Source: Verrucomicrobiia bacterium
Lineage (GTDB): Bacteria; Verrucomicrobiota; Verrucomicrobiia; Limisphaerales; DASXHY01
Assembly (NCBI GenBank): GCA_035629175.1
Contig: DASPIL010000072.1
Coordinates: 1-44,357 of the forward strand
Reading direction: 5' to 3'
DNA length: 44,357 nt
The notes under the pieces were generated by a model. It saw nothing but the letters and a program-made list of their open reading frames with translations, was not told the DNA's origin and made no database searches. Both the position numbers and the translations under genes were made by a program. How positions within the stretch are numbered: the first letter of the stretch is position 1; each line of letters starts with the position of its first letter. Shown here piece after piece: positions 12,632 through 25,615 of this stretch.

Positions 12632-14437
12632 TTACGGCAGTTGTTTACCCGCCGTGCCGGCGTTAAATACCCCCTGGACTTCGGAGACCGTCAACGCCCG
12701 ATTGTAGAGCGAGACTTCGTCCATCCTTCCAGCGAACCCATGCTCGCCATAAGATCCGCCGCTCGCGACGACCCCAATGACAAACGGATACGACGTCTGT
12801 GGCATGATCGTTCCGATTGATTCTTCGGCGACGACGAGGCCGTTGCGGAAAATTCGTGCCACTCCTCCGCTGGAATCATAGGTAACCGCAATGTGTTGAA
12901 ACGCGTTTTCTAGAACAATCGGTCCAGAGGAGAGGATATATGGATTACCGTATACATCGATAATGTTCGCGCAAATCGAGCCACTTCCCTGTCCAGCCTC
13001 GGGATCTTGCGACAGCTTAACCATGGAACCGTATGTGTTGCTGCCATAGCGCCAGCCGAACAGCCACTGGTTAGCGGAGTCCAGATCTACTGGATGCACC
13101 CATGCTTCAATGGTGAATCCACTGGATAAACCAACATTCAAAGTCGACGAAGCCGGCGCAATTACACCTGATGCGATATTCGTGTGCGTGAACCAAAAGC
13201 TTTCGCCCACTTCCCCAGGTACGTACGAGATCGCGGTTGCAGTCCCGTCGTTGGAGCCGACACTATCTTCTGCATTGAATTCTGCTTTCCATAGTGAAAC
13301 CAGGTTGGTCAGAGAGGAAACAGCGCTCAGCTGCGGCGGGCACTTGCCAGCACAACCGGCTGAAAAAATTCCGTATATTTCGTTTGAACTGAGCGCTCTA
13401 CTGTATAGCGCGACTTCGTCCATGTAGCCTCTGTAATCACTCTCGCCGTAATTCCCATTCGCAGCGGCTGACCCGAAAACAAACGGATACGAAGTCTGCG
13501 GTGTGAAGGAACCGAAGGACGATTGAGCCGCCAGAGTTCCGTTTACATAAATTTTCGCAAGACCGGTACCGCTGGAGTCATAGGTAACGGCCAAGTGATG
13601 GAAAGCGTAATCAACAATCAGGGGTGATGTTGAAAGAACATGAGGCGTCCCGTTGACATCGATGATGTTGATGCAGATCGATCCCGCGCCTTGGCCGGCT
13701 GAGGGTGCTTGCGAGAGTTTGACACAAGCGCCGTACGTGTCACTGCCCTCGCGCCAGCCGAATAACCATTGGTTAAGATTGGCAACGGCGGTAGGCGCAA
13801 TCCATCCTTCGATCGTGAACCCAGTGGTGGTCCCTACGTCGAGACGCTTTGACGGTGGCACTACGATTCCGCTATTCGTGCCACTAAACCGAAATGCCCG
13901 TTCAACGATGCCATCGGAATACGAAATGTTTAAGGGCGCTCCATTGTTGCCTCCCACGCTGTCCATGGCATTGTCCTCTCCTTTCCAGAACGCCACGATA
14001 TTTGACGGCGCTGTGTAGCACGACACCACGTTAACCTGAGATGTGACTGTTCCAGAGTTGTCGTTTAGGACAAAGTCGTTGATGCCGAGCAGCAGATCGC
14101 CGGAACTCACCGCCCGAAAATAAGCCGAACTCCCGACAGCAAAATATGGATCTGATCCCGGTGTGCCGATCACTCCGATGAGCTGCCCGTTCATGCCGTT
14201 CTGCATGGGTGTGTTCGGAATATCGAGTGCATAAAAGGCGCCGTTTGGACCGACTGATGGCGAGGATGCTCCCCATTTCCAACTACCGGTTGATGTTATA
14301 CTGACACAATCTCCCGCCGAAACCGTCAGACTCGAATTCACAAACCCGGCCGTCGCTGGAACGGTCACTGAAGCCGTTGCCGCTTTACTGATGCACGCAG
14401 ACGCCAACACGCTTAAACAAACAATAGGTATTTTCAT
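12632..14437 (-). CDS. Secreted protein with LecA (PA-IL)-like lectin domain and two tandem LamG domains
   Basis: This encodes 601 residues from the ATG at 14437, which opens into a signal peptide (MKIPIVCLSVLASACISKAA); an upstream in-frame TTG at 14473 adds 12 non-signal residues and was not chosen. Residues about 21-138 resemble the PA-IL/LecA galactose-binding lectin: an AGDCVSITSTG strand like LecA's PGDVITIVAAG, a GPNG turn, and near the end GINDFVLNDNSGTV, matching the LecA calcium loop IYNDVPGTYGNNSG with a shortened loop. Residues about 141-360 and 370-598 are two LamG/concanavalin-like domains that are clearly internal duplicates. Both contain VTYDSSG, PQTSYPFV and MDEV.LY.RAL. The protein is probably an extracellular carbohydrate binder. 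The lectin assignment is by motif comparison only, and calcium or sugar binding is not proven. Confidence 0.87.
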   Translation of the reverse strand: MKIPIVCLSVLASACISKAATASVTVPATAGFVNSSLTVSAGDCVSITSTGSWKWGASSPSVGPNGAFYALDIPNTPMQNGMNGQLIGVIGTPGSDPYFAVGSSAYFRAVSSGDLLLGINDFVLNDNSGTVTSQVNVVSCYTAPSNIVAFWKGEDNAMDSVGGNNGAPLNISYSDGIVERAFRFSGTNSGIVVPPSKRLDVGTTTGFTIEGWIAPTAVANLNQWLFGWREGSDTYGACVKLSQAPSAGQGAGSICINIIDVNGTPHVLSTSPLIVDYAFHHLAVTYDSSGTGLAKIYVNGTLAAQSSFGSFTPQTSYPFVFGSAAANGNYGESDYRGYMDEVALYSRALSSNEIYGIFSAGCAGKCPPQLSAVSSLTNLVSLWKAEFNAEDSVGSNDGTATAISYVPGEVGESFWFTHTNIASGVIAPASSTLNVGLSSGFTIEAWVHPVDLDSANQWLFGWRYGSNTYGSMVKLSQDPEAGQGSGSICANIIDVYGNPYILSSGPIVLENAFQHIAVTYDSSGGVARIFRNGLVVAEESIGTIMPQTSYPFVIGVVASGGSYGEHGFAGRMDEVSLYNRALTVSEVQGVFNAGTAGKQLP

Positions 14438-14950
14438 GTCGCTGATTCTTGGGATGTTGTTGATGTTCCTCAAAACGTTGCAAATGCGCCACCAACCATT
14501 GACGAGATTAGCAGCGGCTTGCGCATCTATACGGACGAAGACGGGAAATCTTTCAAAAATCTTTCATTTTTTGGCGAGAACGAACAAGAGATACGATAGG
14601 GAGATCTTCGGGTTCCGAATCGCTGTAGGCCGTTTCTCCATTCTGAGCACGGGTGGATTGGCGCGTTCAATATGCAATGGACAAACGGATGCCGGGCAAG
14701 GACTGATCTCGAACATGATGGGTCCCACCCGCTCCGGGATGAAACTTGTATAGAAATCCCACGCTGTGCTGCGCGAAAACTGGACAATATCGACGGCTTT
14801 CTTCGGCACACGCTTATCTTTCTGTTGATGCCCAATGACTTGCGCTAATGGCACAGGGCAAGCTTTTTTGCCTGCCGATCGGAGCAGCGACAGCCTTAAT
14901 AACTAACGAGAAGGCCTGTCTCCGTGCCCTAACCTAACTAATAAGGACCT
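14438..14950. other. Divergent intergenic region without a convincing gene
   Basis: These 513 bases separate the minus-strand lectin gene from a plus-strand gene and should hold both promoters. A GTG-initiated minus-strand frame (14564-14854, 96 codons) is open but has no recognised family and no clear ribosome site, so it is not called. A small hairpin (GGCAA...TTGCC) lies at 14857-14872. Nothing else stands out. Confidence 0.5.
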
Positions 14951-16010: not shown

Positions 16011-17597
16011 ATGACCTCCCGAACATTCCGTTCCCTGGTTCTGTTCATCGCCATGGCCGTGGCCTCTTCAGGCGCTCCCGCTCGGGCGCAGAATGTCTCG
16101 ACGAATGCGACATCAGCCAACGCCAATCGCATCGTCCTGAGCACGCAGGGCACAAATATCATCAATCGCAACATTTACGGCCACTTCGCGGAACATCTGG
16201 GCCGCTGCATTTACGAAGGCATCTGGGTCGGGCCAGACAGTCCAATTCCCAACACGCGCGGCATTCGCAACGATGTTGCCAATGCTTTGCGTGCGCTGAA
16301 GATTCCCGTTCTGCGCTGGCCGGGCGGATGTTTTGCAGATGAGTATCATTGGAAGGATGGCATAGGGCCGCGGGAAAAACGGCCGTCCATGATCAATACG
16401 CATTGGGGAGGCGTGGTGGAGAATAATCACTTCGGAACGCACGAGTTCATGGACCTCTGCGAACAGATCGGTGCAGCACCTTATGTGTGTGGAAACGTCG
16501 GAAGCGGAACGGTCCAGGAAATGATGGAGTGGGTGGAGTATATGACGTCGAGTGCGGATTCCCCCATGGCCAACCTGCGGCGCCAGAATGGGCGCGCCGA
16601 ACCGTGGAAGCTTCCGTTTTTTGGCGTCGGCAACGAAAGCTGGGGCTGCGGCGGCAATATGACCCCCGATTACTACGCGGATTTGTATCGCCGCTACAAC
16701 ACGTTCGTGAAGAACTATGATCGTGCGAATCCAGTGACCCGCTTTGCATGTGGCGCAAACGGGGGGGACACGAATTGGACAGAGGTGGTGATGCGTGATG
16801 TCGGCCGCCGCATGCAGGGGCTGTCTCTGCACTATTACACTGTTCCCCGCACCTGGCGCGAGAAAGGATCAGCAACGCGTTTTGATGAATCCGAGTGGCA
16901 CACCACTTTGCGCAAGGCGCTTGAAATGGACGATCTCGTTACCCGCCACGGCGCGATCATGGACAAATATGATCCGCAGAAGCGCATCGGGATGATCGTC
17001 GACGAATGGGGAACGTGGTACGATGTGGAGCCAGGCACGAACCCGGGATTCCTGTATCAGCAGAATACGTTGCGTGATGCGTTGGTTGCCGCGATTTCGC
17101 TGAACATCTTCAACGAACATTGCGATCGCGTGACGATGGCAAACATCGCCCAAACGGTGAACGTGCTGCAAGCGATGATCCTGACCCACAAGGAAAAGAT
17201 GGTGCTGACGCCAACGTTTCACGTGTTTGAAATGTACTCCGTTCACCATGATGCGACGTTGCTGCCCGCGACGATTTCGTCGAGGCGATACATCTCGCAA
17301 TCGCAGGAAGTTCCACAAATCCACGCGTCGGCATCGAGGGATAAAGCGGGGAGAATTCATGTGACGCTTGCCAATTTGAATCCGAACGAGGCTGCAGAGG
17401 TCGCCTGTGAATTGGCGGGTTTGGGCGGCAAAAAGGTGAGTGGCCGGGTGTTGACGGCTCCTGCGATCAACTCACACAACACGTTCGACAATCCCCACGT
17501 GGTGAAGCCTGCGCCTTTCAACGATTGCAAGGTGAACGATTCGGGATTTACGACCACACTGCCGCCGAAGTCGGTGGTGGTTCTTTCGCTGCATTAA
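16011..17597 (+). CDS. Secreted alpha-L-arabinofuranosidase, GH51 family
   Basis: This 528-residue protein matches glycoside hydrolase family 51, retaining enzymes that release terminal alpha-L-arabinofuranosyl groups from arabinan and arabinoxylan. Residues 1-26 form a signal peptide ending ARA, so the enzyme is exported. The family motifs are present: [15 protein letters not shown] near 56-70, [15 protein letters not shown] at 100-114, the acid/base Glu209 in GVGNESWG, and the nucleophile Glu332 in [13 protein letters not shown]. The C-terminal beta domain ends at the stop ([11 protein letters not shown]). The length fits the family. The gene is followed by about 650 gene-free bases, so it is probably transcribed alone. 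Arabinose or xylose catabolism fits the xylulokinase about 4 kb downstream. The exact substrate is inferred. Confidence 0.95.
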
Positions 17598-18061: not shown

Positions 18062-18254
18062 ATCCTCATCTCTCGCCGTGTGTGTGCTGTGATTGTCCCC
18101 CATGGGACGAGGTTTCGGCTGAGAAGAAGCGTCACTGCGGGGCGGCGGGTTGAAGTTCCCCTTTGACCCTTGCGGCGGCAGAACATAGCTTTCGCCCGTG
18201 CAGAAGGGCAACGCCAGCACGTTTGATTCACCGCAGGTGCGCTTCATCTCGCGC

Positions 18255-19061
18255 ATGCCGCTGCCCCGTTCCTACTCGAACTTTCTCGGCCGGAAATTAT
18301 TTCGATTCCTGCTCACGATCCAGGGACTGGGCGCCTTCACCCTGATCACGCTTGGCGTGTTGCTTACCAAAATGGGGGTCGCTCGCAAATTGATCCGCCC
18401 GCTCATCGTCTTTCAAATCTCGCGGTCCGGAGTTCGGCTGCTTCCCATGTTCCTGTTTCTCGCGGGCGCGACTGGCCTTGTTGTGATTGGACAGACCGTC
18501 TCGTGGGCAACACGGTTTGGGGCAATCAATTATCTCGGAACCATCATGGTGATTGTTGTGGTGCGGGAATTGGGGCCCTTGATCGCGGCGTTGCTCATTC
18601 TTTCACGCGTCGGCGCTGCAAACGTGATCGAACTCGGCACCGCCCGCGCCACGGGTGAAGTCGAGGCGCTGGAAGCCTTGGGGATTGATCCGATTCATTA
18701 TTTTGTCGTGCCGCGAGTGATCGGAATGGCAGTCGGGTTGTTTGCGCTGACCGTCTATCTCATTCTGGGAACTCTTGCGAGCGGTTACCTTTGGGCGTTT
18801 CTGCAGGACGTGCCGCTTCGGCCCGGCGATTATTTTCGGCAACTGGCCGGCGCCCTGTCGGGACTCGACTTCGCGTTGCTTGCGCTCAAGACCTTGTTGT
18901 TTGGATTCATCATTGCATTGGTCACCTGCTATCACGGGCTGGCCCAGCCTCTGCGGCTGGAGGAGGTTTCGTTTGCGACAGTGCGCGCCGTGGCGCAAAG
19001 CGTGATTGCCTGTGTGCTTCTGGATGCCGTGTTCATCCTGATTTATCTCGTCGTCGCATGA
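18255..19061 (+). CDS. mlaE: MlaE-family ABC transporter permease (DUF140)
   Basis: This is the integral-membrane subunit of an Mla/MCE phospholipid transporter in the inner membrane. From the ATG at 18255 it has 268 residues, the usual family length; an in-frame GTG at 18198 would add 19 residues. Several hydrophobic helices are visible, for example MFLFLAGATGLVVIGQTV and TIMVIVVVRELGPLIAALLI. The family's conserved cytoplasmic loop is recognisable as EVEALEALGIDPIHYFVVPR, which contacts the ATPase in MlaE. The stop overlaps the start of the ATPase gene (ATGA), and the MCE gene follows, giving the order permease, ATPase, MCE. The upstream region is the repeat-rich gap, so any promoter lies there. 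Lipid transport is inferred from the family and neighbours. Confidence 0.92.
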   Translation: MPLPRSYSNFLGRKLFRFLLTIQGLGAFTLITLGVLLTKMGVARKLIRPLIVFQISRSGVRLLPMFLFLAGATGLVVIGQTVSWATRFGAINYLGTIMVIVVVRELGPLIAALLILSRVGAANVIELGTARATGEVEALEALGIDPIHYFVVPRVIGMAVGLFALTVYLILGTLASGYLWAFLQDVPLRPGDYFRQLAGALSGLDFALLALKTLLFGFIIALVTCYHGLAQPLRLEEVSFATVRAVAQSVIACVLLDAVFILIYLVVA

Positions 19062-19846
19062 ATGTTTCCGCCGCCACTTCAGTTCCAGTTCTTGAGATGC
19101 GCGGAGTCGCAGTGGGGGCGTTGCGCGATCCCGACGCGGTCATGATCAGCGATGTGAACTGGTCGGTGAACCGCGGGGAGTTCTGGGTGGTCGGCGGCCT
19201 GCAGGGTTCGGGAAAAACGGATCTCGCGCTCCTGGCTGCGGGTTTGATGCCGCCGCTTTCGGGAACGTATCGATTCAACAACGAGCCGATGCCCATGTTC
19301 GATGAAAACCGCCTCGCCGAACGGCTGAAACTCGGCTTGGTCTTCGATGGTGGACAGCTGCTGAACCACCTTACCGTTTCAGAAAATATCGCGCTGCCGC
19401 TGCGTTATCATCGCGATCTTTCGCCAGCGGAATCGCGCGACGAAGTGCGGCGGCTGTTGGACCTGATGGATCTTTCGGCATTTGCCGACAACACTCCCGG
19501 TGCAATTGGCCGAACCTGGCAACAGCGCGTGGGTCTCGCGCGGACACTCATTCTCCGGCCCGAGGTGGTGATCATGGACAACCCTTTGGGCGGCCTTGAT
19601 CTGCGGCATCGGAGCTGGTGGTTGAACTTCCTCGGTGAACTTGCAGCGGGACCTGCATGGTACGGTTCCACGCCTATGACGCTGCTGGTAACGACCGATG
19701 ACCTGCGGATCTGGCGCAACAGGGGGCATCAGTTTGCAATTATCAAGGACAAGCGGCTTGAGGTGCTCGGAGCGTGGAGTGAGGTGGAGCGTTCCATGGA
19801 CCAGCAGGTGCGTGAATTCATGACATCGGCGCAGCATTCGGTTTGA
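19058..19846 (+). CDS. mlaF: MlaF-like ABC ATPase subunit with degenerate catalytic motifs
   Basis: This 262-residue ABC nucleotide-binding subunit starts inside the permease stop (ATGA at 19058). Walker A is intact (GLQGSGKT, about residues 48-55). The other catalytic motifs are altered. The Q-loop reads VFDGGQLL, where MlaF has FQ. The LSGGQ signature is replaced by IGRTWQQR. The Walker B Asp is followed by Asn instead of the catalytic Glu (VVIMDNPLGGLD), and the H-loop reads VTTDDL instead of VTHD. The D-loop (GGLD) remains. The reading frame is unbroken and colinear with MlaF to the end, so this is a whole protein, not a pseudogene by frame. It may bind ATP yet hydrolyse it slowly or not at all. 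Gene order supports an Mla role. Confidence 0.9.
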   Translation: MNVSAATSVPVLEMRGVAVGALRDPDAVMISDVNWSVNRGEFWVVGGLQGSGKTDLALLAAGLMPPLSGTYRFNNEPMPMFDENRLAERLKLGLVFDGGQLLNHLTVSENIALPLRYHRDLSPAESRDEVRRLLDLMDLSAFADNTPGAIGRTWQQRVGLARTLILRPEVVIMDNPLGGLDLRHRSWWLNFLGELAAGPAWYGSTPMTLLVTTDDLRIWRNRGHQFAIIKDKRLEVLGAWSEVERSMDQQVREFMTSAQHSV

Positions 19847-19864
19847 AGCACACTTAACCAAACT

Positions 19865-21082
19865 ATGGCCCTACAGGATCTGACACCGCAGCTTCGGACC
19901 CGACTCAGCCGGATGGAACGCGCGGTTGGGTGGTTTGTGATCATAGCCACCGCGCTCCTCGTCTTCGGCTTCGGCTATTACATCTATAACATTGCCGCGC
20001 GCAAAGGCTGGTTCACGCCCAAGTTCCAGTATCAAACCGGTCTGAACAACGCCGCCGGTTTGAAGGAGGGCAACAGCGTGATGCTCATGGGAAAATCCGT
20101 TGGCGAAATCACCCGCATCGTGCCGAATGCGCCCGATGATTACTATGGCATGACGGTCTACTTCCAGGTGTTGAAGCCTGACTACGGTTACATCTGGGAC
20201 GATTCGCGCGTGAAGGTGTCGTCGGATTTTCTGGGAAATCGTTTCCTGGAAATCACCAAGGGCGCATCGGGTGTGCCCACGATCGATGAGAACACCAACC
20301 GAGTGGCGGTGGCGATGCTGCGATCTGACTTGATCCGCAGTGCGCGCGCGGAGAAGGCGGTTCAATTGCGAAGCGCGAACCCGGATATGGCACGCACGAA
20401 TGCTGCGGGATTCGAATGGCTGGTTGGATACGAATTAAAACAGGTTGTCGCGGCAAATCGCGCACGCTTTTACACCAACCTGGAATCTGTGTACTGGCTT
20501 GACCCTGACGAATCGCCTGCGTTGAACGAGCGGCTGGAGGCCGTTGCGAACCAGGTGGAGGAGGCATTGCCCAACATTTTGAATCTGACGAACCAGCTCG
20601 CCGCGGTGCTCTCCAATTCCGCGGTTTTGATGTCGCATCTGAGCGACGTTGCCGTGGCGGCGCGACCGGCGGTGAGCAACCTCGCGCTGATCACGGCGAA
20701 TCTCGACAAGCCTGGCTCGCTTGGCGAATGGCTTCTGCCGACGAATATCAACCAGCAACTGGACAGCGTGCTTGGCGAGGCGGGTTCGACTTTAAACAGC
20801 GCGAACACGAATGTGGCGATGCTGGCGCACAGCCTGAACGAGACGCTGATCAGCTTGGCTGGCATCACGAGCAATCTCAACACGCAGGTCCAGCAAAACA
20901 CGAACATCGTGAGCCAGATTTCCAAGGCCATCGTGGATGCCGACAATCTTGTGCAGGGATTGAAGCGGCATTGGCTGTTGCGATCGGCGTTCAAGGAAGA
21001 GAACGCGGAGGGCAGGGAAGAAGAGGAGCGGGAGAAAGGTTCGCGGCGGCCGATTCTCTCCCCGCGGGATGCCGCGCGCTGA
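19865..21082 (+). CDS. mlaD: MCE/MlaD-family lipid transport protein
   Basis: This 405-residue protein has one membrane helix at residues about 21-43 (AVGWFVIIATALLVFGFGYY) and then an MCE domain to about 135. MCE landmarks are FQTGLNNA-like FQYQTGLNNAAGLKEGNSV, VGEITRIV and DFLGNRFLEITKG. Residues about 200-370 are helical with many Asn and Leu residues, as in MCE proteins that form a periplasmic tunnel. The tail is highly charged (EEEEREKGSRRP) and may be disordered. The protein would bind lipid in the periplasm, anchored to the MlaE-like permease. The gene lies 18 bases after the ATPase gene and closes the operon, with a terminator-like hairpin 14 bases beyond its stop. The cargo is unknown. 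Confidence 0.93.
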   Translation: MALQDLTPQLRTRLSRMERAVGWFVIIATALLVFGFGYYIYNIAARKGWFTPKFQYQTGLNNAAGLKEGNSVMLMGKSVGEITRIVPNAPDDYYGMTVYFQVLKPDYGYIWDDSRVKVSSDFLGNRFLEITKGASGVPTIDENTNRVAVAMLRSDLIRSARAEKAVQLRSANPDMARTNAAGFEWLVGYELKQVVAANRARFYTNLESVYWLDPDESPALNERLEAVANQVEEALPNILNLTNQLAAVLSNSAVLMSHLSDVAVAARPAVSNLALITANLDKPGSLGEWLLPTNINQQLDSVLGEAGSTLNSANTNVAMLAHSLNETLISLAGITSNLNTQVQQNTNIVSQISKAIVDADNLVQGLKRHWLLRSAFKEENAEGREEEEREKGSRRPILSPRDAAR

Positions 21083-21222: not shown

Positions 21223-21342
21223 CGGCTCGGGTGCGTTTTTGTATAGCGGTACGCCGCTGCGCGCAGTGCGGTTTACGATTTGAACTTTCGGGAGCGGCTC
21301 CTTACTCTCGCCGCCTTGCCGCCAAATTGCGGCATTATAATT

Positions 21343-22929
21343 ATGGCTAAGCTATTCCTTGGGATCGATTCCAGCACGCAGAGCCTCAGCGCCGTGATCA
21401 TTGATTACGACACGCGCAAAGTGGTTTACGAAAAGTCACTCAACTTCGACAGCGCATTGCCGGACTACGGAACGCAGAACGGAGTGTTGCCGCATCGTGA
21501 TCCGCTCGTGAAGCACAGTTCACCGCTCCTGTGGGCGGAGGCCCTGGACATGCTGTTTGCGCAGATGCAAAAGGATGGCGTTGCGCTCGGCGAAGTTCTC
21601 GCCATCAGCGGCAGCGGCCAGCAGCACGGCTCGGTGTATCTGAACGCTGGCGCCGCTGAAGCGTTCGCCAAGTTGGGCAAAGCCAGGAGCCTCGTCGGAG
21701 GATTGCGCGGGGTCTTTTCGCGACGCACCTCGCCAATCTGGATGGATTCCTCAACGGCTGAAGAATGCGCTGAGGTTCGCGCGAAGCTTGGGGGCATCAA
21801 GGCAACGGCACAGAAAACAGGGTCGGACACCTTTGAACGATTCACGGGCCCGCAGATTCGAAAGTTCTACAAACAGGATCGCGAAGCCTACCACCACACC
21901 GCGCACATCGCGCTCGTCAGCTCCTTCATGGCTTCGATCCTCGCCGGAAAAATCGCGCCCATCGACCACGGGGACGGCGCGGGCATGAACCTCATGGACA
22001 TCCGCGCGAAGACCTGGCACGCGGATGCATTGAAGGCGACAGCCCCGGGACTGCGCAGGAAGCTGCCGCCGCTCGCGCCGTCGTCGCAGTTGATCGGGCG
22101 CGTCTGTCCTTACTTCACGCGGAAGTATGGATTGAATCCGGAAGCGCAGGTGCAGGTTTGGTCCGGGGACAATCCCTGCAGCGTGATTGGTTTGGGCCTT
22201 GTGAGCGAGGGCAGGGTGGCCATCAGCCTGGGAACCAGCGACACGTATTTTGGATCCATGAAACGCTGCCGGACGGACGAGCACGGGGAAGGGCATGTAT
22301 TCGGGTCGCCAAACGGGGATTACATGACGCTGATCTGTTTCAAGAACGGGTCCCTTGCACGCGAAAAGGTGAGGGAGCTGTACGGCATCAAAACCTGGGA
22401 GGCGTTTGGCAAGGCGCTGGCCGCCACTCCGGTCGGCAACAACGGGGCGATCCTGCTGCCGTGGTTTGAGGCCGAGATCGTGCCGCGGGTAAACACGCCG
22501 CTGCTGCATCGTTTTGATCTCAACGAGAAGGACGCGGCGGCACATTGCCGGGCAATAGCGGAGGCGCAGATGATGTCGATGCGATTGCATTCTCGCTGGA
22601 TGAAGGTGAAGCCGGAATGCATTTACGCGACGGGCGGCGCGTCCACGAACATTCCTTTGCTGCAGGTGATGGCCGATGTGATGAATTGCCCGGTCGTACG
22701 AATTGAAGTTTCAAAAAGCGCGGCATTGGGCGCTGGGATTCGCGCGGCGCACGGCTGGCTGCTCGCGAATGGCAAGAAGCCGAAATGGGAGGAAGTTGTC
22801 CGCGGTTTTGCCGATCCCATCCCCAAATCCGAAATTCGGCCACAACCGAAAGCCGTGGCGATTTACGACAAGCTGATTGAAAAGTACGCGGCGTGTGAAG
22901 CGGCCGCGCTGAAGACCGCGAGGTGTTGA
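21343..22929 (+). CDS. xylB: Xylulokinase (FGGY family)
   Basis: This 528-residue FGGY carbohydrate kinase phosphorylates D-xylulose to xylulose 5-phosphate for entry to the pentose phosphate pathway (inferred substrate). The ATG at 21343 gives the typical N-terminal motif LFLGIDSSTQSLSAVIID; an upstream in-frame start at 21280 would add 21 residues. Other landmarks are ISGSGQQHGSV at 89-99, WMDSSTAEE near 133, the likely catalytic Asp211 in DHGDGAGMNL, SGDNPCSVIGLGL, the phosphate-binding ISLGTSDTYFGSM, and the FGGY signature region ATGGASTNIPLLQVMADV followed by ALGAGIRAAHG. The protein is somewhat longer than E. coli XylB (484). It stands alone after the Mla operon. A related FGGY kinase specificity cannot be excluded. 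Confidence 0.9.
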   Translation: MAKLFLGIDSSTQSLSAVIIDYDTRKVVYEKSLNFDSALPDYGTQNGVLPHRDPLVKHSSPLLWAEALDMLFAQMQKDGVALGEVLAISGSGQQHGSVYLNAGAAEAFAKLGKARSLVGGLRGVFSRRTSPIWMDSSTAEECAEVRAKLGGIKATAQKTGSDTFERFTGPQIRKFYKQDREAYHHTAHIALVSSFMASILAGKIAPIDHGDGAGMNLMDIRAKTWHADALKATAPGLRRKLPPLAPSSQLIGRVCPYFTRKYGLNPEAQVQVWSGDNPCSVIGLGLVSEGRVAISLGTSDTYFGSMKRCRTDEHGEGHVFGSPNGDYMTLICFKNGSLAREKVRELYGIKTWEAFGKALAATPVGNNGAILLPWFEAEIVPRVNTPLLHRFDLNEKDAAAHCRAIAEAQMMSMRLHSRWMKVKPECIYATGGASTNIPLLQVMADVMNCPVVRIEVSKSAALGAGIRAAHGWLLANGKKPKWEEVVRGFADPIPKSEIRPQPKAVAIYDKLIEKYAACEAAALKTARC

Positions 22930-23143: not shown

Positions 23144-23275
23144 GTCGCAGACGAGGGGCTTTTCGAACTCTGTTTCGTGGAATGGAGTTGTTCCGGATCG
23201 CGATAGTTTTCAGTGCACACCTTGTGCAAACAGGTTTCTATCGGTGTCAAACCGGTATATGTTGCGCATGCCAAT

Positions 23276-25615
23276 ATGAGCCAAACGAACGAACCGCCAG
23301 TGCCGCCGGAAAACGGGAACTGCCTGGCACGTTCTGTCGCGCAGGCCATGGGTGAAGAGCCAACCCTCGAGGCGGTCACGATCGACCGCGCCCGCCAGAA
23401 GATCTCGGTCGCCACGCTTGGCAGGACCGACGAACCCCGCGTCACGGGCACCGTCTCGGACACCATTCAACGGGCATATGAATCAAGCCGGGAACATCAT
23501 TGCATGTTGATCGAAGGCGAGGGGAAGTGTGCCACGTGCGGCGCGCCGCTTTCGGAGGAACAACAGCGCCGTATTTCCATTGAGCATCATGGAGATCAAA
23601 CGACGATATCGCGCGTCACCTGTCCCACGGCTCCGAAGTTCTGGCGATGGCGCGATATCCCGTGGCCGAAGGTCGTTCAACGTGATGTTGAATTTGTTGA
23701 GGATGAGGAACACGCCGAACACCACATCAACGAATGGAAGGCGCAACTTGCGCTGGCAGCCGCGTGCGGCGTGCTCGGGCTGCTGGCGGCCTATGTCGTG
23801 CCTGCCGCCTGGCGGGTTCCGGTTTTCCTGCTGAGCTACCTGGCGGGCGCGTGGTTTCCAGCGGAGGAAGTCTGGGAGCGGTTGCGTCAGCGCGCCATCG
23901 ACGTCCATTTCCTCATGCTTGCTGTCGCCGCGGGCAGCGCCAGCATTGGAGCGTGGGGCGAAGGCGCAACGCTGCTGTTTTTGTTTTCGCTCTCAGGCGC
24001 GCTGGAGCATTTCGCCCTGGGCCGCACGCAGAAGGAGATCCGTTCGCTGTTCCGTGACGCTCCGAAAACGGCCCTCGTGATTGAGCGAAATGGAACCGAG
24101 TCGGAGGTGCCAGTCGAGTCGCTGCAAGTCGGGATGCGCCTTCTCGTCAAACCAGGCTCCCAGTTCCCCGTCGACGCTGAAATTACGCGCGGCAACACCG
24201 CGGCCGATGAATCGAATCTCACGGGCGAAGCAATTCCGGTCGACAAAGCGGTGGGCGACGCCGTGCTGGCGGGCACGATGAACCTTTGGGGTGCGGTGGA
24301 AGTCATCGTGCAGAAGCCCGCCGCCCAGAGTGCGCTGCAGAAGATCATTCGATTGATTCGTGAAGCGCAGCACCAGAAAGCGCCCGCGCAACAATTCACG
24401 GACAAGTTCAGCACCTATTATACGTACTTCGCGCTCGGCCTTTCCGTCGTGATGTTTTTCGTTTGGTGGCTGGCATTGGGACTCGAACCGTTCACTTCCG
24501 CTGGAGAAACCCGCAGTGCCTTCTATCGCACCATGACGTTGCTGGTCGTGGCGTCGCCCTGCGCGCTCGTGCTCTCGATTCCTTCAGCGGTGCTCGCCGC
24601 GATTGCGTGGGGCGCGCGTCAGGGGATTTTGTTTCGCGGGGGCGCCGCCGTTGAGAAGCTGGCGAGCGTTGACGTGGTCGCTTTGGATAAGACGGGAACG
24701 TTGACCACGGGGGAGTTGCGCGTGGAGAAGGTAGAGAGTTTCCCGGCGGGGAATGAAGGCGAAGTCGCGCGGCTCGCATTCTCGCTGGAACGTCTTTCCA
24801 CGCATCCACTCGCCCGCGCCATCACCCGTTACGGCAAGCAGCAGCAACTCGCGCCGCTGGACCTGAAGGAGTTCGCGTCGGTTACGGGACAGGGACTGCG
24901 GGCGCGTCATGCAGAAAACCTGTGCCTGCTCGGACGGCGCGATTGGGTGTTAAGTCAAAGTGACCCTGGTAGCGCCCCGGAACAACCCGCTGCAAGCGCC
25001 CCAGGTTTTTCGGAAATCTGGGCGGCAGCGGGAACGCTGCTTGGAAGAATCATTCTGCGCGATGACGTCCGGCCTCAGGCGCGTGCGGTCATGCAGCAGT
25101 TGAAGAAAGAAGGGTTGCGGACTGTCGTGCTGACAGGTGACCGGCAGGCCACCGCCAGTCATTTGAAAACTGAACTGCAGTTGGACGACGTGCGGGCTGA
25201 ATTGACACCCGAGCAGAAGGTCGGCGCCATCCAGGGTCTCACGGAAGAAGGGCGGAAGGTGGCAATGGTGGGCGATGGCGTGAACGATGCCCCGAGCCTG
25301 GCTGCGGCGTTCATCGGCGTTGCCATGGGCGCGCGCGGATCGGATGCCGCGCTGGAGCAGGCTGACGTGGTGCTGATGCATGACCGGCTGGAAAATTTTC
25401 TCGCCGCTTTTCGCCTCAGCCAGCGCGCGCGTGCGATCATCCGCCAAAACCTCGTGGTGTCGCTCGGGACAGTCGCAGTGCTCGTGGTATTCGCCATCAT
25501 CGGAAAAATTCCGCTGACGCTCGGGGTCATCGGCCACGAAGGCAGCACCGTGATTGTAGTCATGAACAGCTTGCGGCTCCTGTTTGGCGCCAACCACCTG
25601 AAGGACGAAGCCTAA
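23276..25615 (+). CDS. P1B-type heavy-metal ATPase (SPC/HEGST class) with Cys/His-rich N-terminus
   Basis: This 779-residue membrane pump moves metal ions out of the cytoplasm using ATP. I chose the ATG at 23276; a GTG at 23213 would add 21 residues. The core motifs are intact: TGE at 316-318, phosphorylated Asp471 in DKTGTLT, the HP motif (STHPLARAI), TGDRQATA and MVGDGVNDAPS. The membrane metal motif is SPC at 427-429, and the last helix carries HEGST at 754-758. Together they fit the P1B-4 class (Co, Zn or Fe) and not the CPC Cu or Zn/Cd classes. The N-terminus (1-150) has no usual HMA domain but carries CATCG (Cys85, Cys88), Cys103-region VTCP and EDEEHAEHHINEW, which could bind metal. 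It stands alone with no metal regulator visible nearby. The metal is not determined. Confidence 0.93.
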   Translation: MSQTNEPPVPPENGNCLARSVAQAMGEEPTLEAVTIDRARQKISVATLGRTDEPRVTGTVSDTIQRAYESSREHHCMLIEGEGKCATCGAPLSEEQQRRISIEHHGDQTTISRVTCPTAPKFWRWRDIPWPKVVQRDVEFVEDEEHAEHHINEWKAQLALAAACGVLGLLAAYVVPAAWRVPVFLLSYLAGAWFPAEEVWERLRQRAIDVHFLMLAVAAGSASIGAWGEGATLLFLFSLSGALEHFALGRTQKEIRSLFRDAPKTALVIERNGTESEVPVESLQVGMRLLVKPGSQFPVDAEITRGNTAADESNLTGEAIPVDKAVGDAVLAGTMNLWGAVEVIVQKPAAQSALQKIIRLIREAQHQKAPAQQFTDKFSTYYTYFALGLSVVMFFVWWLALGLEPFTSAGETRSAFYRTMTLLVVASPCALVLSIPSAVLAAIAWGARQGILFRGGAAVEKLASVDVVALDKTGTLTTGELRVEKVESFPAGNEGEVARLAFSLERLSTHPLARAITRYGKQQQLAPLDLKEFASVTGQGLRARHAENLCLLGRRDWVLSQSDPGSAPEQPAASAPGFSEIWAAAGTLLGRIILRDDVRPQARAVMQQLKKEGLRTVVLTGDRQATASHLKTELQLDDVRAELTPEQKVGAIQGLTEEGRKVAMVGDGVNDAPSLAAAFIGVAMGARGSDAALEQADVVLMHDRLENFLAAFRLSQRARAIIRQNLVVSLGTVAVLVVFAIIGKIPLTLGVIGHEGSTVIVVMNSLRLLFGANHLKDEA

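Follow-up and report, generated by a model that had tools for sequence, protein, structure and literature searches.

A conserved Verrucomicrobiota operon of an MlaE-family permease, an MCE protein and an MlaF paralogue that has lost its catalytic motifs

We found a three-gene operon at positions 18258-21082 (forward strand) of the window, that is, the whole stretch of 44,357 nucleotides that was analysed. The operon encodes an MlaE-family permease (18258..19061, +), an MlaF paralogue with lost catalytic motifs (19058..19846, +; identified by profile matches and alignment, and called pseudo-MlaF here), and an MCE (MlaD-like) protein (19865..21082, +). The start codon of the permease is inferred, and its frame is open from a GTG at 18198. 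The ORF of pseudo-MlaF is uninterrupted and overlaps the permease stop codon by four bases (ATGA, 19058-19061). The ATG of the MCE gene, at 19865, is 18 bases past the end of pseudo-MlaF. The MCE protein has 405 amino acids, with one MCE domain and a long C-terminal part that includes a GLKRHWLLR motif. Neighbouring genes encode a protein with LamG-like lectin domains (12632-14473, -), an alpha-L-arabinofuranosidase (16011-17597, +), an FGGY sugar kinase (21280-22929, +) and a P-type ATPase (23213-25615, +). None of these has an evident tie to lipid transport.

We aligned pseudo-MlaF with canonical MlaF from its own genome and from the phylum; the names and roles of the ABC motifs are textbook knowledge. 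Pseudo-MlaF retains Walker A (residues 47-54, GLQGSGKT; 19196..19219, +), including K53 and T54, as well as the Walker B Asp174 and the D-loop Asp181. It has lost the Q-loop Gln, replaced by Asp97 (19346..19348, +), and the signature, in which IGRTW (residues 150-154; 19505..19519, +) replaces LSGGM. The catalytic Glu next to Asp174 is replaced by Asn175 (Asp174 and Asn175, 19577..19582, +), and the H-loop His is replaced by Asp214 (19697..19699, +). Thus, four of the six features that we counted are lost and pseudo-MlaF fails the test for complete ATPase motifs. In contrast, all six were intact in each of 21 canonical MlaF proteins sampled from the phylum, two of them from the window's genome. 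An initial annotation, made from the sequence alone, had described an open frame with degenerate motifs between a permease gene and an MCE gene. That description held, as did its changes of the Q-loop Gln to Asp and the Walker B Glu to Asn, its lost signature, and its retained Walker A and D-loop; the flanking genes were confirmed by domain matches, the overlap and the 18-base gap. Its claim that the H-loop His had become Thr did not hold and was one column off. The canonical VVTHD aligns with VTTDD, so the position of the His is that of Asp214.

Family profiles place pseudo-MlaF among ABC proteins without assigning it to a curated family. It matched Pfam ABC_tran with 73 bits. Its score against the MlaF equivalog NF008809 was 80.2 bits, far from the cut-off of 441 (the canonical MlaF of the window's genome was not scored against this cut-off). 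The top NCBIfam match was FtsE, with 108 bits and under its cut-off of 264.85, and none of the 25 NCBIfam models shown reached its curated cut-off with pseudo-MlaF. An AlphaFold2 model, made from an alignment of two sequences (the window's and that of locus L021), was poor (pLDDT 50.6, with residues 1-104 below 50) and not usable.

The permease met the test for an MlaE permease. It matched PF02405 (MlaE) with E 2.7e-50 and 171.3 bits (cut-off 22.5). This was its sole Pfam match, and the test for a membrane subunit of the LetA/PqiA type was not met. The permease is under the curated cut-off of TIGR00056 (124.3 vs 212.2), and it is 40-79% identical to the permeases of relatives that carry the degenerate ATPase. 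In MlaE, a coupling helix between TM2 and TM3 docks MlaF (PMC7790496). Based on conservation in relatives, we take the cytoplasmic loop ELGTARATGEVEALEALGIDP (18630..18692, +) to be the ATPase-docking coupling helix; it is likely, by inference, that this loop is the one between TM2 and TM3. This loop was conserved across 126 permeases of the window type with an ATPase; of two loci that lack an ATPase gene, L190 has an altered loop and L191 one that is shorter by ten residues. The loop of the window type is unlike that of canonical permeases.

The loss of catalytic motifs is common to relatives of pseudo-MlaF. We extracted 222 ATPases from loci, of which 178 were distinct by their last 150 residues, and counted motifs in the 128 of window type. 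The type of a locus was set by the nearest of three permease queries and not by its motifs; L079 and L107, which had no permease row, were assigned to the window type by default. L132 (masked, running into X) and L192 were excluded before counting, and L138, an unrelated ABC ATPase, was kept out of the alignment. The signature SGG was found in none of the 128. The Walker B Glu was present in 5 (Asn in 92), the H-loop His in 3 (Asp in 73 and Glu in 19, that is, an acidic residue in 92), and the Q-loop Gln in 8 (Glu in 58 and Asp in 30, or 88 with an acidic residue). No window-type ATPase retained more than three of the six features. The Walker A Lys and Ser/Thr were present in 121 of 128 and the Walker B Asp in 127 of 128, and few positions of the family are as conserved as K53, G52 and D174. 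In addition, Trp occupies positions 35, 43, 187, 188 and 219 in 116-127 of the 128 sequences and in none of the 21 canonical ones, which suggests a new surface and not loss alone. A search of the window's taxonomic family found no genome besides the window's own. L021, from a separately named MAG, is 51-52% identical to the window ATPase and has an identical Q-loop block, FDGGQLLNHL.

Two loci are described here as observations in their own right. The excluded L192 (genome G301) is a long-branch, intermediate relative with a damaged P-loop, no SGG and no His, in which the Gln and Glu are present. L185 (G297) has an ORF of about 325 amino acids between the MlaE and pseudo-MlaF genes, with a GDSIT-like stretch; by eye, it is an SGNH-type hydrolase.

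We found the degenerate ATPase throughout the order and in two further families. In the order, 218 of 293 genomes had a match to the ATPase query with E no higher than 1e-25. This number is best read as an upper limit for the family, since canonical MlaF is itself found at E 1e-28 by this query. The permease query was run against 384 genomes of the class, five of which had no match. Of 74 matching genomes of the same order (the window's included), 62 matched at E <1e-36, as did 16 more genomes in three other families of the class (five in f65, ten in f67 and one in f71). The next matches were at about 1e-28, with canonical MlaE among them. In families f27 and f38 (e.g., G160, G104 and G080), the ATPase matches contained one in-frame TGA. 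The ORFs of L082 and L083 are 261 amino acids long, so the match in these families probably extends past the stop.

The gene is under purifying selection in relatives. There were 21 pairs with more than 72% identity. In the 12 closest, which do not include the window, the ATPase had a dN/dS of 0.12-0.22 and the permease one of 0.05-0.17, with the permease slightly above the ATPase in one pair. Together with the open frame, these values mean that the test for a pseudogene was not met. Taken together, these data show an MlaF paralogue that is without the signature, the catalytic Glu, the Q-loop Gln and the H-loop His, that retains its P-loop and Mg-binding Asp, and that has been kept under selection in the order.

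The permease is more strictly conserved than pseudo-MlaF. Where permeases of the window clade were 0.65-0.75 identical, the mean identity of their ATPases was 0.48, and the ATPase was below the permease in all 1377 pairs. In contrast, the ATPases of canonical operons in the same bin had a mean identity of 0.69 and were below the permease in 4 of 11 pairs. Over all bins, the ATPase was less identical than the permease for 7527 of the 7529 pairs of window type, compared to 18 of 59 for canonical pairs (3 of 4 in the 0.75-0.85 bin). The pairs in these counts are not independent. A purifying dN/dS combined with faster divergence than that of the permease indicates that constraint on the ATPase has changed and is not absent.

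The MCE protein of the window met the MCE-domain test (PF02470, E 5.5e-8, 33.4 bits vs a cut-off of 25.1) and was far under the cut-off of the MlaD equivalog (34.9 vs 135). Complete MCE proteins of the clade, measured from called starts, had a median length of 410 amino acids, compared to 326 in canonical operons. The C-terminus of the window protein carries the GLKRHWLLRSAF motif. Of 107 complete MCE proteins in the clade, 77 have a C-terminal HWLxR motif; the motif was found in 3 of 4 from loci lacking the ATPase, and in none of 20 canonical proteins. The second permease group (below) contributed no complete MCE protein to these counts. Long MCE proteins have been proposed to be envelope bridges (PMC10665443).

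After removal of duplicates, ten window-type loci had no adjoining MCE gene. One of these, L045, is on a contig that ends 47 bases past the ATPase gene. The remaining nine (L028, L042, L054, L089, L093, L100, L105, L109 and L110) have genes for MlaE and pseudo-MlaF without an adjoining MCE gene. An unlinked match to the window's MCE protein was found in eight of these nine genomes, the weakest in G136 (E 4e-27). The genome with no unlinked match (G204) is 78% complete.

A second group of permeases (type-3) is associated with a still more degenerate ATPase. A search of 387 genomes of the phylum gave members of this group in 49, at E 1e-38, and none of the 49 belongs to the window's class. The ATPase gene directly follows the permease gene in 39 of 44 type-3 loci, and Walker A is missing in all 27 distinct ATPases of the group. 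Under our rule, three of the 44 loci lacked an ATPase as well as an MCE gene: L249, which stops at the end of a contig, L242, which has an ATPase gene 822 bases further on, and L261 (G662). In L261, no ATPase or MCE was recognised within 1.5 kb of the permease gene, and the next ORF is, by eye, TPR-like.

Two other branches of the permease tree include loci without the ATPase gene. We found four such loci, each in a different genome, in which the MlaE gene is followed directly by that of the MCE protein. In L190 (G346) and L191 (G319), the stop codon of the MlaE gene and the ATG of the MCE gene overlap by four bases. The other two, L193 (G072) and L195 (G005), have permeases of the second group, and their MCE genes begin 59 and 3 bases past the permease gene, respectively. 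We made a broad tree with 83 permeases out of 183 distinct ones (18 of the window type and 16 of type-3 drawn at random, the remainder chosen) and a careful tree with 37 hand-picked sequences and an outgroup from the same phylum only. Canonical permeases were separate from the window type in both trees, and in the careful tree the split between canonical and decoupled permeases had 100/99 support. The permeases without an ATPase were placed in two branches, and a single origin was rejected (p-AU 2.4e-76, 147 log units lost). The tree program warned that the long type-3 and canonical branches may attract falsely, so exactly how the branches join is unsure.

We found no MlaF of either kind in G319 or G346 with the canonical query and the pseudo-MlaF profile; both are draft assemblies, and only the top ABC match in each was identified. 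These genomes (95% and 99% complete, respectively) have one PF02405 match each. With the profile of the window-type ATPase, two independent controls outside the profile gave E 3e-110 (G297) and 1e-105 (G303), and two members of the profile gave 1e-109 (G000, the window's genome) and 2e-103 (G335). In contrast, G319 and G346 gave 1e-37 and 1e-35, the level of ordinary ABC proteins. A canonical MlaF query matched five other genomes tested at 1.5e-66 or better; its top matches in G319 (5e-40) and G346 (1e-33) were PotA-like and DrrA-like.

Based on these results we infer that the operon is likely an MlaE-MCE lipid conduit that is uncoupled from ATP hydrolysis, and in which the MlaF paralogue has been retained as a nucleotide-binding scaffold or gate. 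This inference is from sequence; there is no biochemistry on hydrolysis, binding or lipid transfer. In this model, pseudo-MlaF would still be ABC-folded and seated on the coupling loop of the permease. A homodimer without signature, Glu, His and Gln has no complete site, so turnover is not expected from the ABC mechanism, and the retained P-loop and Walker B Asp suggest a bound Mg-nucleotide. Pseudo-MlaF may thus bind Mg-nucleotide without turning it over and act as a scaffold or a nucleotide-sensing gate; a scaffolding role has been proposed for ATP in degenerate ABC sites (PMC7756269). Lipids would follow their own gradient by way of MlaE and the MCE tube, and the two canonical MlaE-MlaF pairs of the same genome would be able to do ATP-driven work. 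Transfer of lipid from MlaD to MlaC reportedly needs no ATP hydrolysis, and hydrolysis is reported to block that outward flow (reviewed in PMC10212509), so a motor-free Mla should permit passive outward flow. We predict that an ATPase-dead Mla would favour outward (anterograde) flow, although we have no data on direction or substrate.

There are several caveats. A few members of the family retain the Glu (5), the His (3) or the Gln (8). Walker A is still selected, so ATP binding, and perhaps slow hydrolysis, may matter. It is possible that the acidic residues of the Q- and H-loops make an alternative catalytic arrangement. It is also possible that the canonical MlaF of the window's genome acts in trans.

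The initial annotation had proposed that the system is driven differently, or is passive or partner-dependent, and had held that intact motifs in close relatives would point to local decay. The same kind of losses is shared by the 128 distinct sequences from related Verrucomicrobiota, and local decay is not borne out. The shared losses, purifying selection in 12 pairs and relatives without the ATPase support a differently driven or passive system over decay, in the absence of an ATPase measurement. The partner-dependent option is weakened, since G319 and G346 show a single MlaE and no MlaF was found in them, and is not excluded for the window.

A bolder reading is one that we hold only tentatively, as the evidence leaves it rather more open to doubt than not. 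In this reading there was a stepwise conversion, from an intact MlaF to one that binds nucleotide and does not hydrolyse it, then to one without a P-loop and, in some lines, to none. The product would be a gradient-driven, probably anterograde MlaE-MCE bridge that supplies phospholipid to the outer membrane, beside ATP-driven copies of Mla that run in the opposite direction.

The alternative that survives best, though unlikely, is that the degenerate subunit pairs with, or is displaced by, a canonical MlaF from elsewhere that supplies hydrolysis. MceG serves several Mce operons in mycobacteria. The window's genome (G000) carries, besides the operon, two MlaE genes paired with a canonical MlaF, one on contig C105 (L214) and one on C3 (L002); their permeases are in different canonical branches. 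Pseudo-MlaF also retains Walker A, and some ABC exporters are heterodimers with a single degenerate site (PMC7756269). However, the four losses are all in one chain, which by motif count leaves a mixed dimer without a complete composite site. In addition, G319 and G346 have a permease of the clade and no MlaF that we could find, and the coupling loop is unlike the canonical one.

Two further alternatives are very unlikely. Pseudo-MlaF might hydrolyse ATP through an unusual site in which acidic residues of the Q- or H-loop stand in for the lost Glu. The frequency of Asp or Glu at the Q (88/128) and H (92/128) positions and the retained P-loop and Walker B Asp are consistent with this notion. 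Against it, the signature is lost in all 128 sequences, the acidic positions are not invariant, Walker A is lost throughout the second group (27/27), and the gene is absent in some relatives. Alternatively, the subunit might be purely structural, binding no nucleotide and serving only to stabilise the permease dimer. The second group does retain an ABC-like subunit without Walker A at the same position in the operon, but conservation in the window type is near its highest at K53, G52 and D174. Finally, local decay, a pseudogene or an assembly error, for which one could cite the faster divergence of the ATPase relative to its permease and its loss in some relatives, is rejected and all but excluded by the open frame, the presence of the gene throughout the order and two further families, the dN/dS of 0.12-0.22 in 12 pairs of relatives, and similar losses in a MAG that was named separately.

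The components of the operon belong to known families, and the conserved lineage of dead MlaF with ATPase-free relatives is the new part, within the open-access literature that we searched. In that literature (most subscription papers were outside its scope) we found no description of an MlaF that is catalytically dead and conserved, or of an MlaE-MCE operon without MlaF in diderms beyond the mycobacteria-type systems. One paper uses MlaDE clusters and notes that MlaF annotation is uncertain; its section 9 does not discuss ATPase motifs (PMC10665443). The uncoupled operon would provide a natural experiment on the disputed role of ATP hydrolysis in Mla and on the direction of flow without hydrolysis. 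A conserved clade with its motor off, together with relatives that have no motor, would point to MlaE and an MCE protein as a sufficient route for lipids, and opens the passive and anterograde models to direct tests. There is also a lesson for the automatic annotation of Mla systems, in which the label ATPase does not guarantee that a subunit hydrolyses ATP.

The operon resembles MlaFEDB and MlaEFD of Escherichia coli and Veillonella parvula in that an MlaE permease, a subunit with the MlaF fold and an MCE protein are encoded together, and its MCE protein is long, as in most Mla systems outside the Proteobacteria (PMC10665443). Unlike those systems, the ATPase of the window has no signature, catalytic Glu, Q-loop Gln or H-loop His, and related lineages have no Walker A or no ATPase. 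LetAB and PqiAB are also MCE lipid conduits whose membrane subunit has no ATPase domain (PMC12436622), but that subunit is LetA or PqiA and not MlaE (PF02405). The ABC exporters TM287/288, TmrAB and MRP1 likewise have a changed Walker B Glu and signature in a nucleotide-binding domain. Those exporters retain one canonical site (PMC7756269), whereas here all of the losses are in one gene product; a complete composite ATP site is impossible in a homodimer of pseudo-MlaF or, by motif count, in a mixed dimer, and the real partner is not known. The AsmA-like proteins YhdP, TamB and YdbH, although unrelated to the components of the window's system, have been suggested to form hydrophobic channels for the diffusion of phospholipid (PMC11226057) and are a precedent for lipid flow without a motor.
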